DNA from: Propioniciclava soli | Lineage (GTDB): Bacteria > Actinomycetota > Actinomycetes > Propionibacteriales > Propionibacteriaceae | Assembly: GCF_014858005.1 (NCBI RefSeq) | Contig: NZ_JACYOT010000006.1 | Coordinates: forward strand, 1 to 64,000 | DNA: 64,000 nt | Direction: 5' to 3' | Shown here: positions 5,918 through 31,449 of the stretch, piece after piece | Layout: every line of letters starts with the position of its first letter | How positions within the stretch are numbered: the first letter of the stretch is position 1 | Translations under genes and position numbers: made by a program | Notes under the pieces: generated by a model | Database searches by the model: none | What the model saw: the letters and a program-made list of their open reading frames with translations, nothing else | What the model was told of the DNA's origin: nothing

Positions 5918-6009
5918 GCGACGAAAAGGCGACACTCGATGCGCACGCGTGCCGGCCGCTGAGCGTGAATCCGTGACCGGTGCGACATCGAGTGTCGCCT
6001 TTTCGTCGC
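5918..6009. repeat. 24-bp perfect inverted repeat between divergent genes
   Basis: Arms at 5918-5941 and 5986-6009 are perfect reverse complements (one arm begins GCGACGAAAAGGCGAC), separated by 44 bases. The element lies between the starts of the M50 gene and purD, which diverge, so it is not an ordinary terminator. It ends 33 bases before the purD -10 hexamer. It could be a dispersed intergenic repeat or a regulatory cruciform. Confidence 0.75.
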
Positions 6010-20645: not shown

Positions 20646-21968
20646 GTGAGCGATTTCGGCCTCGACCTGCCCCTCGTCCATGCCGGAAAGGTCCGCCGCC
20701 TGTACGCGTGGCCGGACGACCGGCTGCTGATGGTCGCCACCGACACCATCAGCGCCTACGACTTCGTGCTCGACACCCCGATCCCCGACAAGGGCGCCGT
20801 GCTCACGCAGCTCTCGCTGTGGTGGTTCGAGCAGCTCGGCGTCGAGAACCACGTGGTGTCGACCGAGGTGCCGGACGCCGTCGCCGGCCGGGCGCTGGTC
20901 GTCGAGAAGCTGGCCATGGTGCCGGTGGAGTGCGTGGCCCGCGGCTACCTGACCGGCTCCGGCTGGGCGGAGTACCAGGCCTCCGGCACGGTGTGCGGGG
21001 TGCCGCTGCCGGCCGGGCTCGTGGACGGCTCGCGGCTGCCCGAGCCGATCTTCACGCCGGCGGCGAAGGCCGACCTCGGCGAACACGACGAGAACATCAC
21101 CTACGAGCAGGTGGTCGCCCAGCACGGCGAGGAGCTGGCCGCAGCGCTGCGTTCGGCCACCCTCGATCTCTATCGGCGCGCGGAGGAGATCGCCCGGGAG
21201 CGCGGCATCATCCTCGCCGACACCAAGTTCGAGTTCGGACGCCGCCCCGACGGCACGTTGGTGCTCGCCGACGAGGTGCTCACGCCCGACTCCTCCCGCT
21301 TCTGGGACGCCGACGGCTGGCGTCCGGGCGAGGCCCTGCCGAGCTTCGACAAGCAGTTCGTCCGCGACTGGCTGACCCGCGACTCCGGCTGGGACCGGTC
21401 CGGCGACGCCGCGCCGCCCGCGCTGCCCGACGACGTCATCGCCGCCACCCGGGCGCGCTACGTCGAGGCCTACGAGCGGCTGACGGGGGCGCCGTTCGCG
21501 CCCGGGGCTGCCGGTGCGGGGGTGGACGCCGCTGCCGCCGAGAAGGACGACGAGCCCGCGCCGCCCCGGCGCGCGTTGCCGGCGAACGAGTGGGTCGAGC
21601 TGGTGGCGTCCGCCTCGGGTGCGGACCTGCTGGTCGGGGGTGCCCGGTCGGCGTCCGACCTGGCCGAGCCGGACGCTGGGCCGCAGCGGGCCGCGCCGGC
21701 GGCGTCCGATAGCATGACCGGCATGGCGCGAGTGGTCGTGGACGTGATGCCCAAGCCCGAGATTCTGGACCCGCAGGGCAAGGCGGTGACCGGCGCACTC
21801 GGGCGGCTGGGGTTCACCGGGTTGACGGTGCGGCAGGGCAAGCGGTTCGAGGTCGAGGTGGACGGCGAGGTCACCGAGGACGTGCTCGCGCAGGTCCGCG
21901 ACGCCGCCGAGAAGCTGTTCGCGAACACCGTCATCGAGAGCTACGACGTGCGGGTGGAGGAGCGGTGA
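20646..21968 (+). CDS. purC: SAICAR synthetase fused in frame to PurS
   Basis: One uninterrupted 440-residue reading frame. Residues 1-about 290 are PurC, which joins CAIR and aspartate using ATP; visible motifs are [44 protein letters not shown] and [12 protein letters not shown]. Residues about 290-355 are an Ala/Pro/Glu-rich linker. Residues 360-440 match a complete PurS ([11 protein letters not shown] to [10 protein letters not shown]), the small FGAM-synthase subunit. Its stop overlaps purQ in GTGA. Internal ATGs at 21714 and 21723 could start a free PurS, so either a true fusion or a read-through frame with a separate internal gene is possible. The PurC start GTG is set by the -10 hexamer and conserved N terminus. 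Confidence 0.9.
21723..21968 (+). other. purS: PurS moiety of the fusion, or internally initiated purS
   Basis: This 81-residue segment is a full-length PurS in the PurC frame. PurS bridges PurL and PurQ in the three-part FGAM synthase. ATG codons at 21714 and 21723 are possible starts. No ribosome-binding site precedes them, but TAGCAT overlaps the first ATG region, so separate expression cannot be excluded. Confidence 0.6.
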
Positions 21969-22639
21969 CCCGGATCGGGGTCGTCACGTTCCCGGGGTCG
22001 CTGGACGACCAGGACGCCCGCCGCGCCGTCGAGCTGTGCGGGGCCGAGCCGGTGGCGCTGTGGCACGACGCTGCGGACCTGGGGGGCGTGGACGCCGTGA
22101 TCCTGCCCGGTGGGTTCTCCTACGGGGACTACTTGCGCTGCGGCGCGATCGCGCGGTTCAGCCCGATCATGGCCGAGGTGGTTGCCGCGGCGGGCCGGGG
22201 GATGCCGGTGCTGGGCATCTGCAACGGGTTCCAGGTGCTGTGTGAGTCGCACCTGCTGCCGGGCGCCCTGGTGCGAAACGATCGGCTGACGTTCGTGTGC
22301 CGCGACCAGAAGCTGCGCGTGGAGAACGACACGACGGCGTGGACGAACGATTTCACCGCCGGCCAGGAGATCACCATCGTGCTGAAGAACGGTGAGGGCT
22401 CCTACATGGCCGACGACGAGACGCTGGCCCGCCTGGAGGGCGAGGGTCTGGTGGCGTTCCGCTACGTCGGGGGCAACCCGAACGGGTCGCGCAACGACAT
22501 CGCGGGCATCACGAACCCGCGGGGCAACGTGGTGGGCCTCATGCCGCACCCGGAGCACAACGTCGAAGAGCTCACGGGCCCGTCCCTGGACGGCCAGGGG
22601 TTCTTCCGCTCCGTCGAGGCGTTCCTCGCCCGCGTCTGA
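21965..22639 (+). CDS. purQ: FGAM synthase glutaminase subunit
   Basis: Supplies ammonia from glutamine to PurL for FGAM synthesis. The 224-residue class I glutamine amidotransferase has [13 protein letters not shown], the nucleophile elbow [11 protein letters not shown] (Cys near residue 86) and the His-Glu pair in [13 protein letters not shown]. The length is normal. Its GTG start overlaps the PurC-PurS stop (GTGA), giving translational coupling, which suits the PurS-PurQ-PurL complex. A 200-base gap with decamer repeats and a 56-bp palindrome follows. Confidence 0.96.
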
Positions 22640-22700
22640 CCTCTGGGCCGCTACCGCGTTGGTGGGTGGTTGGGTGGCGGTTGGCCTCCGTGGGCTCTGA

Positions 22701-22740
22701 TTGGCACTGCTTGGCGCTGATTGGCCCTGCTTGGCACTGT
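22701..22740. repeat. Decamer tandem repeat, period 10
   Basis: Four consecutive 10-base units of pattern TTGGCNCTGN lie at 22701-22740, also readable as two 20-base units. A degenerate unit precedes them. They abut the 56-bp palindrome. A period close to one helical turn could place bound protein on one face of the DNA, or this is simple slippage. Confidence 0.6.
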
Positions 22741-22741
22741 T

Positions 22742-22797
22742 GGCATTTGGACCCGAGGGAATGGCGCCATGGCGCCATTCCCTCGGGTCCAAATGCC
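22742..22797. repeat. Perfect 56-bp palindrome, copy 1 (possible bidirectional terminator)
   Basis: Two 28-base arms are exact reverse complements with no loop. The outer part begins GGCATTTGGACCCGAGGG and the centre is GGCGCCATGGCGCC. It lies between the convergent 3' ends of purQ (22639) and the alcohol dehydrogenase (22839), so a very strong hairpin could form in either transcript. A second copy is at 23949-24004. Confidence 0.85.
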
Positions 22798-22838
22798 CGC
22801 TGGGGGCGGGTTGCCCCCTGGTGGCCAGTCGGGACGCG

Positions 22839-23903
22839 TCAGTTGACGGGCTCGGCGTCGGCGAAGGTCGCGGTGTCGATCACGAAGCGGAACAGGACGT
22901 CGCCGTCCACCACGCGCTCGTAGGCGGCGTCCACCTCGTCCACCCCGATCTTTTCGATGCGGGCACCGAAGCCGTGCTCGGCGCAGAAGTCCAGCATCTC
23001 CTGGGTCTGGGCGATGCCCCCGATGTCGGAGCCGGTGAGCACCTTGCGCCCGCCGATGAGGGAGAAGATGCCGAGCGGCATCGGGGTGGGCGGCGCGCCC
23101 ACGCACGCCATGACGCCGCGCGGCTTGAGCAGGCGCAGGTAGGCGTTGAGGTCGATGTCGGCGCTGACGGTGTTGAGGATCAGGTCGAATTCCCCGGCGT
23201 GGTCGTCGAAGAAGCCGTCCTCCGTGGTCGACAGGGTGCGGGACGCCCCCAGCTCCTTGGCCAGGTCCTCCTTCTTCAACGAGCGGGACAGCACGGTGAC
23301 GTCCGCGCCGCGAGCGGCGGCGATCTGGACGCCCATGTGGCCCAGGCCGCCGAGGCCGAGCACCGCGACCTTCTGCCCCTCCTGCACGTTCCACGTGGCC
23401 AGCGGGGAGTAGGTGGTGATGCCGGCGCACAACAGGGGAGCGGCCTCGTCGAAGTCGAGGGCGTCCGGCAGGCGCAGCACGAACCGCTCGTTGACGACGA
23501 CCTTCTCGCTGTAACCGCCCTGGGTGGTGGTGCCGTCGACGTCGGTGGACGCGTACGTGCCGACGTTGCCCTTGAGGCACGACTGCTCCTGGTCGTTGCG
23601 GCACTCCTCGCACTCGCCGCAGGAGTTTACGAGACAGCCGACGCCGACGCGGTCGCCGACGCTGACGCGGGTCACGGCATCACCGACCGCCTCGACCACC
23701 CCGGCGATCTCGTGGCCGACGGCCAGCGGGTAGGTCACCGGGCCCCACTCCTCGCGAATCGTGTGGATGTCGGAGTGGCAGATGCCGGCCGCCTTGATGG
23801 CGATGACGACGTCGTCGGGGCGGGGGTCGCGGCGCTCGATGGTGCGCACCTCGAACGGGGCGTCGGCGCTGGTCTTCTGGAGGGCCTTCACGGTGATGGG
23901 CAT
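22839..23903 (-). CDS. Zinc-dependent NADP-type alcohol dehydrogenase
   Basis: A 354-residue medium-chain dehydrogenase of the cinnamyl-alcohol dehydrogenase/YahK-like group, likely reducing aldehydes to alcohols. Catalytic zinc ligands are in GICHSDIHT (Cys), VGHEIAG (His, Glu) and a later Cys. The structural zinc site is the four-Cys lobe CGECEECRNDQEQSC. The cofactor loop GLGGLGHMGVQIA is followed by VLSRS, where Ser-Arg-Ser favours NADPH. The start 23903 has TAGGGT exactly 6 bases upstream, predicting a leaderless mRNA. The gene is bracketed by two copies of a 56-bp palindrome. Physiological substrate unknown. Confidence 0.88.
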   Translation of the reverse strand: MPITVKALQKTSADAPFEVRTIERRDPRPDDVVIAIKAAGICHSDIHTIREEWGPVTYPLAVGHEIAGVVEAVGDAVTRVSVGDRVGVGCLVNSCGECEECRNDQEQSCLKGNVGTYASTDVDGTTTQGGYSEKVVVNERFVLRLPDALDFDEAAPLLCAGITTYSPLATWNVQEGQKVAVLGLGGLGHMGVQIAAARGADVTVLSRSLKKEDLAKELGASRTLSTTEDGFFDDHAGEFDLILNTVSADIDLNAYLRLLKPRGVMACVGAPPTPMPLGIFSLIGGRKVLTGSDIGGIAQTQEMLDFCAEHGFGARIEKIGVDEVDAAYERVVDGDVLFRFVIDTATFADAEPVN

Positions 23904-23909
23904 GCCTCA

Positions 23910-23915
23910 ACCCTA
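23910..23915 (-). promoter_or_regulatory. -10 element for leaderless alcohol dehydrogenase gene
   Basis: TAGGGT on the minus strand lies 6 bases before the ATG at 23903. Confidence 0.35.
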
Positions 23916-23948
23916 GGCGCCCCCCGGGCGGGGGGTTGGTCATCGGCG

Positions 23949-24004
23949 GGCATTTGGACCCGGGGAAATGGCGCCATGGCGCCATGTCCTCGGGTCCAAA
24001 TGCC
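23949..24004. repeat. 56-bp palindrome, copy 2
   Basis: Second copy of the element at 22742-22797: 28-base arms with two mismatched pairs and the same centre GGCGCCATGGCGCC. It lies just after the stop of the BadF-type kinase (24038) and before the alcohol dehydrogenase promoter, so it may end kinase transcription. Confidence 0.8.
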
Positions 24005-24037: not shown

Positions 24038-24952
24038 TCAGGCGTGGGCGACGGAGAGCTTCGCGTGCAGGGGGTGGTCGTCGGGAAGGTCCACCAGGCG
24101 CTGGGCACCGTCGATCCCCTGGCCCTGCGGCTCGGTGAGCGCGAAGTTGGGCCATTGCAGGCTGAGGTAGTCGGTGAAGCGGTTCACGACGCGGTGGCTG
24201 TCGAACACCCCGCCGATCGCCGCGACCCGGGGGGCCGGCGTGCCCTGCAGCTCGACCCGCCTGATCGCCGCCTGCACGGCCTCGGACAGGTGCGCGGCCG
24301 CCTTGTCGAGGATGTTGCCGGCCACGCGGTCGCTGGCGGCGAGGGCGTCCACCTTGGCCGCGAAGGAGGCCACGCGCTGCACGCGGTTCACGTCGGTCTG
24401 CAGATCCAGGTACGCCCGCTCGAGGTTGGGGTACTCCTCGGCCATCGCCTCGGTCAGCGCCGTCATCTGCCGGCGGCCGTCGAAGCCGCGCAGCGCGGCC
24501 TCCAGCCCGGTGCGCCCGATCCAGTACGCCGAGCCGGCGTCGCCCATCAGGTAGCCCCAGCCGTCCACCCGCGCGACGGACTCCGGCCCCACCGCGAAGC
24601 AGATCGTGCCCGTGCCGGCCGCGATGACGCAGCCCGTGTCCGACCCCAGCGCGCCGAGGTAGCTCGTCACCGAGTCGTGGCACAGGATCACCTTCGCCAC
24701 GCCGCGGCCGGCCAGCCGCCGCAGCAGGACGCCCGCGTCCCCGTCCTCGTTGCCGCTCGAGCCCAGCGCCACCGTGTGGGGGTGCCAGTCGGGGTGGGCG
24801 TCCAACACCGCTTCGATCCCCGCCCCCAGTTGACGCAGCAGGGGCATGTCCGTGACCACACCGGGCCCCTTGGCCTCGGCCGCGCCGGCGTCCGACACGT
24901 ACCGGTAGCGGGTGGAACTCTGGCCTGCGTCGGCCACGAGGTGAGCGACCAT
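24038..24952 (-). CDS. BadF/BadG-type kinase, N-acetylglucosamine kinase-like
   Basis: A 304-residue protein of the ASKHA superfamily in the BadF/BadG/BcrA/BcrD group, whose stand-alone members are often N-acetylglucosamine kinases. Motifs: phosphate-1 loop [26 protein letters not shown], adenosine-region [13 protein letters not shown], and [29 protein letters not shown], which is very typical of GlcNAc kinases. A GGAGGG ribosome-binding site supports the start, and TAGGCT about 40 bases upstream is a possible -10. It is divergent from purL. Substrate is inferred from family; no amino-sugar genes adjoin it. Confidence 0.8.
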
Positions 24953-25040: not shown

Positions 25041-27293
25041 GTGGTCGACACCGTTGGAAACGCCTTTGCCACCCCCGATGCCGAGCAGCCCTGGGCCGCG
25101 CTCGGGCTCCGCGCCGAGGAGTACGACCGCATCCGCGAAATCCTCGGCCGCCGGCCGACGGGCTGCGAGCTGGCCATGTACTCGGTGATGTGGTCGGAGC
25201 ACTGCTCGTACAAGTCCTCCAAGGTGCACCTCGCACGCTTCGCCGAGGTCGGCTCCGAGACGCCCCGAGGCCCCCTCCTGGCCGGCATCGGTGAGCAGGC
25301 GGGGGTCGTCGACATCGGCGGCGACTGGGCCGTGACGTTCAAGATCGAGTCCCACAACCACCCCAGCTACGTCGAGCCCCACCAGGGGGCGGCGACCGGC
25401 GTCGGCGGCATCGTCCGCGACATCCTCGCCATGGGCGCCCGACCGATCGGCGTCATGGATCCGCTGCGCTTCGGCCCGCTGGACGCCCCCGACACCGCTC
25501 GCGTCCTGCCCGGCGTGGTCGCCGGCGTCGGCGGCTACGGCAACTGCCTCGGCCTGCCCAACATCGGCGGCGAGGTGGTGTTCGACCGCACCTACCTCGG
25601 CAACCCGCTCGTCAACGCCCTGTGCGTCGGCGTCCTCAAGCACGACGACCTCAAGCGTGCCCAGGCCCGCGGCGTCGGCAACCAGGTGATCATGTACGGC
25701 GCCGCGACGGGCGGCGACGGCATCGGCGGGGCGTCCATCCTGGCCTCGGAGACCTTCGACGCCGACGGCCCCGCCAAGCGCCCCAGCGTCCAGGTGGGCG
25801 ACCCCTTCATGGAGAAGCTGCTCATCGAGTGCACCCTGGAGCTGTTCGCGGCCGGCGTCATCCAGGGCATCCAGGATTTCGGCGCGGCCGGCATCAGCTG
25901 CGCCACGTCCGAGCTCGCGTCCGCCGGCGACGGCGGCATGTACGTCAACCTGGACGAGGTCGTGCTGCGCGACCCGACGCTCTCGCCCGAGGAGATCCTC
26001 ATGAGCGAGAGCCAAGAGCGGATGATGGCGGTGGTGACGCCGGACGACGTCGAGCAGTTCCTCGCGATCTGCGCCAAGTGGGACGTGCTGGCCACCGTCG
26101 TCGGCGAGGTCATCGAGGGCGACCGCCTGATCATCGACTACCACGGCGAGCGCGTGGTGGACGTCGACCCGCGCACCGTCGCCCACGAGGGCCCGGTGTA
26201 CGAGCGGCCGTGGAACCGCCCGGACTGGATCGACGCCCTCAACGCCGACCGCGCCGAGGACCTGCCGCGCGCGGCGTCCGGCCGCGAGCTGGGCGAGCAG
26301 GTGCTCACCCTCGCCGGCTCGCCCAACCTGGCCGACAAGAGCTGGATCACCGACCAGTACGACCGCTACGTGCGCGGCAACACGGTGCTCGCGCAGCCGG
26401 AGAACGCCGGCGTCCTGCGCATCGACGAGAACTCCGGGCTCGGCATCGCGCTCGCCACCGACTGCAACGCCCGCTTCTGCCTGCTCAACCCGTACCTCGG
26501 CGCGCAGCTCGCCCTGGCCGAGAGCTACCGCAACGTGGCGGCGTCCGGCGCCGAACCGGTCGCGATCACCGACTGCCTCAACTTCGGCTCGCCGGAGGAT
26601 CCCGACGTGATGTGGCAGTTCCGCGAGGCGATCCTGGGGCTGGTGGACGGCTGCCGCGAGCTGGGCACCCCGGTCACCGGCGGCAACGTCAGCTTCTACA
26701 ACCAGACCGACGGCGTGAACATCCTGCCCACCCCGGTGGTGGGCATGCTCGGCATCATCGACGACGTGGCCCGGCGGACGCCGCAGGGCTTCGCGTACCC
26801 CGGGGACGCCGTCGTGCTGCTCGGCACGACGCGCGAGGAGCTCTCGGGCAGCTCGTGGGCCGAGGCGATCCACGACCACCTCGGTGGGATGCCCCCGACG
26901 CCGGACCTCGCGGCCGAGCAGGCGCTCGCCCGCGTGCTGGTGGCGGCGGCCCGCGACGGGCTGCTGACCTCCGCGCACGACCTCGCCGACGGCGGGCTCG
27001 CCCAGGCCTTGGTGGAGGCGTCCCTGCGCCACGGGCTGGGCGTGTCGCTGACGCTGCCGGACGGCGACCCCACCGTCGCGCTGTTCTCCGAGACGCCGGC
27101 CCGCGCGGTCGTGTCGCTCGCGGGGGCCCAGTACGCGGCGTTCGAGGCCCTGTGCGCCGAGCACGGCGTGCCGCTGGAGCGCATCGGTGAGGTGGTCGAC
27201 ACCGGCGAGATCGAGGTGCTCGGCCAGTTCAGCTTGTCGCTCGACGACGTCCGCGCCTGCTGGGAGGCCCCGATCCGCGACGCGATGGCCTGA
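25041..27293 (+). CDS. purL: FGAM synthase large subunit, short PurL form
   Basis: ATP-dependent conversion of FGAR to FGAM. At 750 residues this is the Bacillus/actinobacterial short PurL that needs PurS and PurQ, both present at 20646-22639. Motifs: [16 protein letters not shown] (catalytic His), [63 protein letters not shown] and [17 protein letters not shown]. The start GTG 25041 is chosen from the -10 hexamer 6 bases before it. An upstream in-frame extension would run into the BadF promoter and is not conserved in character. PurF follows 61 bases downstream with its own -10. Confidence 0.97.
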
Positions 27294-31310: not shown

Positions 31311-31345
31311 GGGCGCTCTGTTCGTGGGCCGGGGTGGGCCGTCGC

Positions 31346-31434
31346 CGTCGAGAACCCAGGCACAAGCACGGCTTGTCGACGCGAAACGGGCTGTGGGCGT
31401 CGACAACCCATGCACCAGCCTGCGTTGTCGACGC
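31346..31434. repeat. Two 37-bp hairpin-forming direct repeats (possible bidirectional terminator)
   Basis: Units at 31346-31382 and 31398-31434 are similar direct repeats, sharing CGTCGA, AACCCA, GCAC and TTGTCGACGC. The second is an inverted repeat with arms GCGTCGACAA (31397-31406) and TTGTCGACGC (31425-31434). They fill the gap between the convergent hydrolase and amylase genes, so they may end transcription from both sides. Confidence 0.65.
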
Positions 31435-31449
31435 CGCCCCGGGGAGCGG

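Follow-up and report, generated by a model that had tools for sequence, protein, structure and literature searches.

Two palindromes around a dehydrogenase gene

The stretch of DNA analysed here (the window, 64,000 nucleotides) corresponds to positions 1 to 64000 of contig C54 of the genome of Propioniciclava soli. In this window, two palindromes are found among the following genes:

20646..21968, plus strand, a single open reading frame matching PurC (residues 7-282) and PurS (residues 360-439)
21965..22639, plus strand, purQ (NF002957, 320 bits, above the cut-off), with its 3' end facing palindrome copy 1
22742..22797, no strand, palindrome copy 1, perfect (28+28, no spacer), with a 48-bp core at 22746-22793 and GGCA/TGCC edges
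22839..23903, minus strand, adh, a zinc-dependent alcohol dehydrogenase/aldehyde reductase-like gene (best NCBIfam match NF047908 Ahr, 288 bits, below the cut-off of 470)
23949..24004, no strand, palindrome copy 2, 56 bp with two mispaired positions
24038..24952, minus strand, an N-acetylglucosamine-kinase-like gene (NF046058, 65.7 bits, below the cut-off of 370), with its 3' end facing palindrome copy 2
25041..27293, plus strand, purL, the synteny anchor in comparisons with relatives

An earlier note on this DNA had described the first palindrome as loopless and perfect over 28-base arms and the second as having two mispaired positions, and both descriptions are correct, copy 2 being 93% self-complementary over its length. 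As proposed there, the two copies share GGCGCCATGGCGCC and bracket the adh-like gene; they are 93% identical. Measured to the 48-bp core, copy 1 is located between the convergent purQ and adh genes, 106 bp past the stop codon of the former and 45 bp past that of the latter, and copy 2 follows the stop codon of the kinase-like gene by 37 bp and is 49 bp upstream of the start of adh. Folded as RNA, copies 1 and 2 reach −56.2 and −45.3 kcal/mol, with z-scores of −11.8 and −8.3 as compared to dinucleotide shuffles. Judged by these z-scores and by the copies that occur genome-wide, the window palindromes are beyond chance. At up to three mismatches, the 18-base core does not occur in the window outside copies 1 and 2. 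In Rfam, the palindromes matched microRNA-precursor models alone, at scores far below the gathering scores, as expected of any long hairpin; at gathering scores, Rfam recognized only tRNAs, at 12 of the copy-bearing loci described below.

Some further features of the window may be mentioned. Judging from the single reading frame upstream of purQ, purC and purS look fused in Propioniciclava soli. Imperfect 10-bp tandem repeats occupy positions 22693-22742, directly before copy 1. Elsewhere, a 24-bp perfect inverted repeat (GCGACGAAAAGGCGACACTCGATG) with its arms 44 bp apart is present at 5918-6009, and a 40-bp imperfect inverted repeat (78%) with several GTCGAC motifs inside is present at 31343-31436.

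A dispersed repeat family

The suggestion that the palindromes belong to a dispersed repeat family, for which a search of the complete genome had been advised, was borne out by 46 places in the 3.80-Mb genome (3,795,546 bases in 65 contigs). A strict pattern, consisting of TTTGGACCC and GGGTCCAAA with an allowed spacer of 10 to 40 bases, was found at 37 places with a spacer of 30 bases every time, as compared to no match at all for a reversed control pattern in the whole genome. A covariance model built from these 37 strict copies recovered them and nine more at E ≤ 1, a count obtained by scoring 150 of 3010 first-look candidates, so that copies in a more decayed state may have escaped. The copies have the majority sequence GGCATTTGGACCCGAGGAAATGGCGCCATGGCGCCATTTCCTCGGGTCCAAATGCC, and a more fitting description of the repeat unit is that of a 48-bp core (TTTGGACCC...GGGTCCAAA) with a looser 4-bp edge on each side, usually GGCA...TGCC. 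The core has sharp bounds: conservation is partial in the edge bases, and further outward no relation is seen between the sequences of the 37 strict copies. The 13-base arm matched 86 times at up to one mismatch, with 85 of these matches inside palindromes and the other, at C1:288605, isolated and carrying one mismatch. Thus, this assembly holds neither half elements nor a long element with these ends. The near-identity of the copies suggests that their spread was recent.

Within the copies, hardly any variation is seen in the outer 12 bp of the arms and in the central 16 bp, and the 4-5 bp in between vary; for the 37 strict copies the outer nine pairs (9 bp per arm) were preset by the search pattern. 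Among 44 full-length copies, 47 of the 88 half elements are at consensus over 24 bases, and in 20 copies both inner 14-base arm segments are at consensus. Symmetric copies that deviate from the consensus number 3 of 44 versus 0.26 expected from random pairing of halves, a value reached in 7 of 5000 shuffles. Hybrids of two arm types are also present, for example at loci L014, L030 and L058. The pairing signal reported by a covariance tool exceeded that of shuffles on three of five measures, but not on the two based on numbers of pairs or of pair types. Such concerted change of the arms fits either selection on the stem or template-switch correction, a process which, according to a published account, can perfect hairpins (PMC8794818).

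The alternation of nearly invariant and variable segments would also suit a protein-binding site, conserved for binding by a nucleoid-associated protein, a chromosome-organising protein or a regulator and not for its hairpin. An uneven distribution of the copies over the contigs points in the same direction: contig C54 holds 14 copies in 406 kb, and contig C1, at 598 kb, has just two, both weak (simulated p = 0.002). The dnaA gene, on contig C3, is about 85 kb away from the closest copy on the same contig. However, sites for a housekeeping protein would be expected in other species of the genus, and the repeat was not found in those that were searched. Placement past gene ends (see below) and arm changes that are concerted between the two sides also argue against a binding site, which we consider improbable.

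Restriction to one genome among those searched

With the covariance model at E ≤ 1e-5, none of 38 other relatives (12 from the genus, 10 from the family and 16 from the order, with 145 candidates scored per genome) gave a match. Over 198 family genomes, with just 28 candidates scored per genome, the only matches at E ≤ 1e-3 besides those in the own genome were a single weak one each in G116 (E 7e-4) and G072 (E 3e-5). With up to one mismatch allowed, the own genome contains the 18-base core at 37 places, and none of the 197 other family genomes contains it. The exact arm pattern was encountered in no stretch among 84,980 species genomes (a set from which near records of the own genome may be omitted) and in no stretch of viral contigs, and the consensus gave no BLAST match in plasmids and phages. 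As far as searched, the repeat family thus appears private to this genome, the species being represented by one genome. In a comparison of PurL sequences, Tessaracoccus antarcticus (75% identity) and other members of the Propionibacteriaceae came nearest among the named organisms in the matches listed. Judging from the listings, none of the papers retrieved in literature searches dealt with such a repeat in Propionibacteriaceae or Tessaracoccus, or with dispersed perfect palindromes.

The match in G072 was rejected as a member of the family and is taken as an analogue, since it belongs to a different set of palindromes with arms GAGAATCCGGGGAGATGG and a variable centre, present in G072 and G075 (L186:1501-1549, L188:1501-1549 and L187:1501-1549). 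These palindromes lie 15-65 bp past called stops in two species of another genus; in 39 genomes, their arm pattern gave two copies in G072, one in G075 and a fourth match, in G053, that is unrelated. They are perhaps a small conserved terminator-like family. The weak covariance matches L073 (E 0.002) and L082 (E 0.8), obtained when 50 of 85 loci of other genomes were searched, look like chance hairpins and were set aside.

An intragenic copy and the question of mobility

One copy, on contig C64 (L054:2005-2052), lies in frame inside an open reading frame that encodes a DUF6350 protein (Pfam E 1e-50), with the domain match spanning the copy. Orthologues from the same genus match the protein on both sides of the copy, and the segment itself is absent in all nine orthologues that cover the place (a tenth aligned locus, in G012, ends short of it). 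The insertion place is a variable-length loop, in which the own protein is longer than its relatives by more than 16 residues, which leaves the ends of the insertion approximate. The 48-bp core comprises 16 codons and contains no stop triplet in any frame, so that a copy can sit in a gene with the frame left intact. Since the segment is missing from the orthologues, the repeat family has very probably moved, to judge from an orthologue comparison made at species level and at this locus, the relatives being too distant for an alignment of the intergenic places. Support for mobility comes from this intragenic copy in combination with the restriction of the family to one genome.

Target-site duplications were not detected: exact 5-bp flanking repeats occur at 1 of the 46 copies (2.4 expected by shuffling), and repeats of 6, 7 or 8 bp at none. 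The GGCA/TGCC edge may either belong to the element or represent a sequence preferred for insertion. In a genome-wide transposase search, which covered the Y1_Tnp family, the profile of the Y1 transposase (RAYT, PF01797) gave no match at E ≤ 1, and the same profile, as a control, was positive in 10 of 14 genomes. By Pfam and PADLOC, no driver gene was seen between close pairs of copies, where ordinary genes and one AbiEi-like protein are located.

In being small and dispersed, with inverted-repeat ends and no transposase of their own, the palindromes resemble MITEs, and their discrete ends and near-identity would agree with a decayed or hit-and-run MITE of which the full-length insertion sequence has been lost. 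Unlike in MITEs, the arms adjoin without a spacer and target-site duplications were not seen; a partner insertion sequence with the same ends was not found in the assembly, and plasmids, phages and viral contigs gave no match to the repeat. A lost MITE, which is a special case of the explanation that we favour below and overlaps with it in probability, is possible, but we regard it with doubt.

Placement at gene ends and possible transcription termination

The position of the copies relative to genes was derived from a simple open reading frame scorer, whose divergent assignments may include errors, as was the case for L033. As called, 16 copies are convergent, 20 tandem and 10 divergent, with the intragenic copy L054 counted as divergent by its outer neighbours. 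On hand inspection L033 is tandem, a missed frame ending 16 bp from the copy, and the corrected arrangement is 16 convergent, 21 tandem, 8 divergent and 1 intragenic. Background gaps of at least 30 bp in 224 kb (17 convergent, 71 tandem and 27 divergent) were taken from the window and eight 20-kb stretches of C54, most of which were picked for holding copies, so that some copies are included in them. Against this background, the arrangement of the copies deviates (chi-square p = 0.0004), and copies are in excess between convergent genes (16/45 as compared to 17/115 gaps; Fisher p = 0.008). At 33 of 46 places, or 34 with L033 corrected, the copy starts within 150 bp past a called stop, and in 16 of 20 tandem gaps it is nearer to the stop than to the next start. 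Stem perfection shows a weak link to a 3'-end position, with p = 0.08 as called, 0.03 with L033 corrected and 0.11 with L061 additionally treated as lying downstream of a tRNA, when two copies of other than 48 bp are assigned three mispairs and G-U is taken as a mispair. That perfect stems are commoner at gene ends is suggestive only.

The positions past stop codons and the convergent excess support the part of the earlier note which held that the palindromes are placed as suits terminators. Other terminator properties were looked for as well. A tract of at least five T in any eight of the next 12 bases was found at none of the 74 sides of the 37 strict copies, and a terminator pattern scan at the window copies found none. 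In terms of folding energies and of the 33 positions shortly past a stop, the stable hairpin that is expected of an intrinsic terminator is present. Hairpins lacking a U-tract were reported as mycobacterial terminators, with contradictory evidence (PMC5335608). The palindromes are like these I-shaped intrinsic terminators in having a strong G+C-rich hairpin past the stop, and unlike them in that the same sequence recurs at 46 places, one of them within a gene.

A comparison with relatives gave a mixed result. Relative G005 has a single-contig genome, a PurL that is 85% identical, and a gene order largely collinear with C54 over 400 kb. This 400-kb stretch contains no palindrome of the repeat-family kind and has 14 perfect hairpins with arms of at least 13 bp and loops of 1-5 bases, in other sequences. 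Nine G005 gene ends were hand-picked because their orthologues face a copy, of which seven were scorable, with L031 excluded as a partial, inverted match. A stem of at least 12 bp is present at four of these seven (purQ, the kinase-like gene, L026 and L029) versus 37 of 224 ends overall (p = 0.015 by Fisher test and 0.017 by binomial test, two of the four having been spotted before the test), and the hairpins are unrelated in sequence to the repeat. By the same measure, G011, G003 and G001 gave none at the six ends of purQ and the kinase gene, and pooling the four relatives gives 4 of 13 gene ends; an 11-bp stem is visible by eye at the purQ end of G011, its loop exceeding the limit set in the measure. 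With the hairpin comparison mixed in this way, the idea that the palindromes occupy places of terminators derives mainly from their position past stop codons. From these positions and the predicted folding, the palindromes may act at gene ends as bidirectional hairpins that end transcription.

It could be argued that termination is all there is to it, the repeat being a strong bidirectional terminator that is not mobile but became duplicated and has been retained at the ends of genes by selection alone, as a standard specific to this lineage. The placement past stops and between convergent genes, the unrelated hairpins at four of seven syntenic gene ends of G005 and the shared-arm palindromes past stops in two species of another genus would all be in line with this. 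However, a terminator has no need for near-identity of arms and core, which extends to the inner-arm consensus in 20 of 44 copies, nor does it explain a copy inside an open coding frame and copies between divergent genes. Considering in addition the missing U-tract and the lack of hairpins at the six purQ and kinase ends of three relatives, we find this explanation unlikely.

The dehydrogenase gene as possible cargo

The earlier note had also raised the possibility that the two palindromes delimit a cassette with the dehydrogenase gene inside. There is some reason for such a proposal. Five of the 12 other genomes from the genus have matches to adh at E ≤ 1e-60, which are only 50-55% identical, and no adh match was found in the purQ-purL region fetched from G005, G011, G003 and G001, where other genes are present (in G005, three ABC transporter-like genes, named by eye from their translations, lie between purQ and the kinase gene). 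Furthermore, five neighbouring pairs of copies are less than 2.6 kb apart, which is slightly more than the 2.0 expected at random within contigs (p = 0.045). However, the presence of other genes in the purQ-purL interval of four relatives means that the slot is variable and nothing more, and since only 74 of the 187 called C54 genes have a match above 50% in the 400-kb stretch of G005, absence of a gene is common there. Most copies stand alone beside unrelated genes, target-site duplications were not detected, and the genes between close pairs are unrelated and mostly metabolic: a dehydrogenase, an aldo/keto reductase, an AbiEi-like gene, a pyridine nucleotide-disulphide oxidoreductase, and AHSA1 plus Usp genes. 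A dehydrogenase cassette was therefore abandoned as a general explanation, and also for the window pair we hold it to be very improbable. In the explanation favoured below, the copies flank adh because each of them follows the 3' end of a neighbouring gene (and copy 1 that of adh as well), not as borders of a cassette; nothing ties the palindromes to the variable adh slot, and adh is outside the element.

Two side observations concern the surroundings of other copies. The AbiEi-like protein (PADLOC E 1e-10) is encoded between two copies on the own contig C54, at L026:2163-3161. Upstream of a copy in a divergent gap, at about 1800-2000 of L030, a run of C-rich repeated units (CTGGGGGCTCCGCCCCCAGCCCCCC) was noticed, which is absent at the syntenic place in G005.

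Relation to known palindromic repeats

Most of what is understood of short palindromic repeats in bacteria comes from REPs and the RAYT transposases that go with them. According to two accounts, the repeat described here resembles REP/REPIN sequences with a RAYT in that short palindromes occur in many copies, mostly intergenic and often past genes, form RNA hairpins and are occasionally intragenic (PMC3733652, PMC8266576). As in REP/REPIN families, the palindromes are dispersed and mainly extragenic, with 45 of the 46 places intergenic by the gene calls. In contrast to REP/REPIN sequences, the consensus and edges carry no GTAG/CTAC tag, no base being conserved beyond the GGCA/TGCC edges, and no Y1 transposase was found in the genome; with tag and Y1_Tnp both missing, identification as a REP family with a RAYT was rejected. 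Furthermore, the stem of 24-28 bp is loopless, whereas most GTAG repeats have a stem of 6-9 bp (PMC3733652), and the 46 copies differ from the hundreds to thousands given for REPs (PMC8266576).

Similarities to CGTC repeats and to Rickettsia palindromic elements (RPEs), which are palindromic and without a known dedicated transposase, are also evident (PMC3733652, PMC10969869). RPEs, of about 150 bp, insert in frame inside genes, with 44 of them reported in genes of one species (PMC10969869). Unlike RPEs, the present repeat is shorter than about 150 bp, occurs in a different phylum and shows an in-frame gene insertion in a single copy, L054 (1/46); and the CGTC/GACG tag is absent from its consensus and edges. 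In summary, the repeat behaves like a REP or a MITE yet lacks what defines either of them, i.e. GTAG tag and RAYT on the one hand, duplication and partner element on the other.

A probable tiny mobile element, possibly kept at gene ends

In our opinion, the probable explanation of the observations, held with some reserve, is a genome-private palindromic repeat that spread as a tiny non-autonomous mobile element and persists mainly at gene ends, possibly as a terminator. The element would be the loopless 48-bp palindrome, usually with GGCA...TGCC edges, spreading within the lineage as a very small unit, while the copying machinery may have been lost, may act in trans, or may belong to a transposase family other than Y1. 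A transcript running past a gene would fold, whichever strand is transcribed, into a hairpin of up to 26 bp, which may serve as a terminator without U-tract or as a 3' stabiliser. Such a role of the hairpin could be the reason that insertions past genes are tolerated or kept, and the match between the arms would be maintained through selection acting on the stem or through correction by template switching.

A more far-reaching possibility is that the family represents a new actinobacterial class, i.e. a self-propagating palindrome without a REP-type transposase, which would multiply by template switching or through copying of the folded hairpin, would remain symmetric by the same process, and would insert without target duplication, with the 48-bp unit perhaps going in between GGCA and TGCC. 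It would then spread ready-made bidirectional terminators. This is speculative, and we give it little chance.

For the window itself, the grounds for seeing the dehydrogenase gene as cargo are removed. More generally, the repeat has the habits of a REP, being dispersed, located at gene ends, hairpin-forming and confined to one lineage, without the REP tag or, as far as searched, the REP transposase. It offers a compact case for asking how palindromes multiply, and whether genomes acquire terminators as mobile units.
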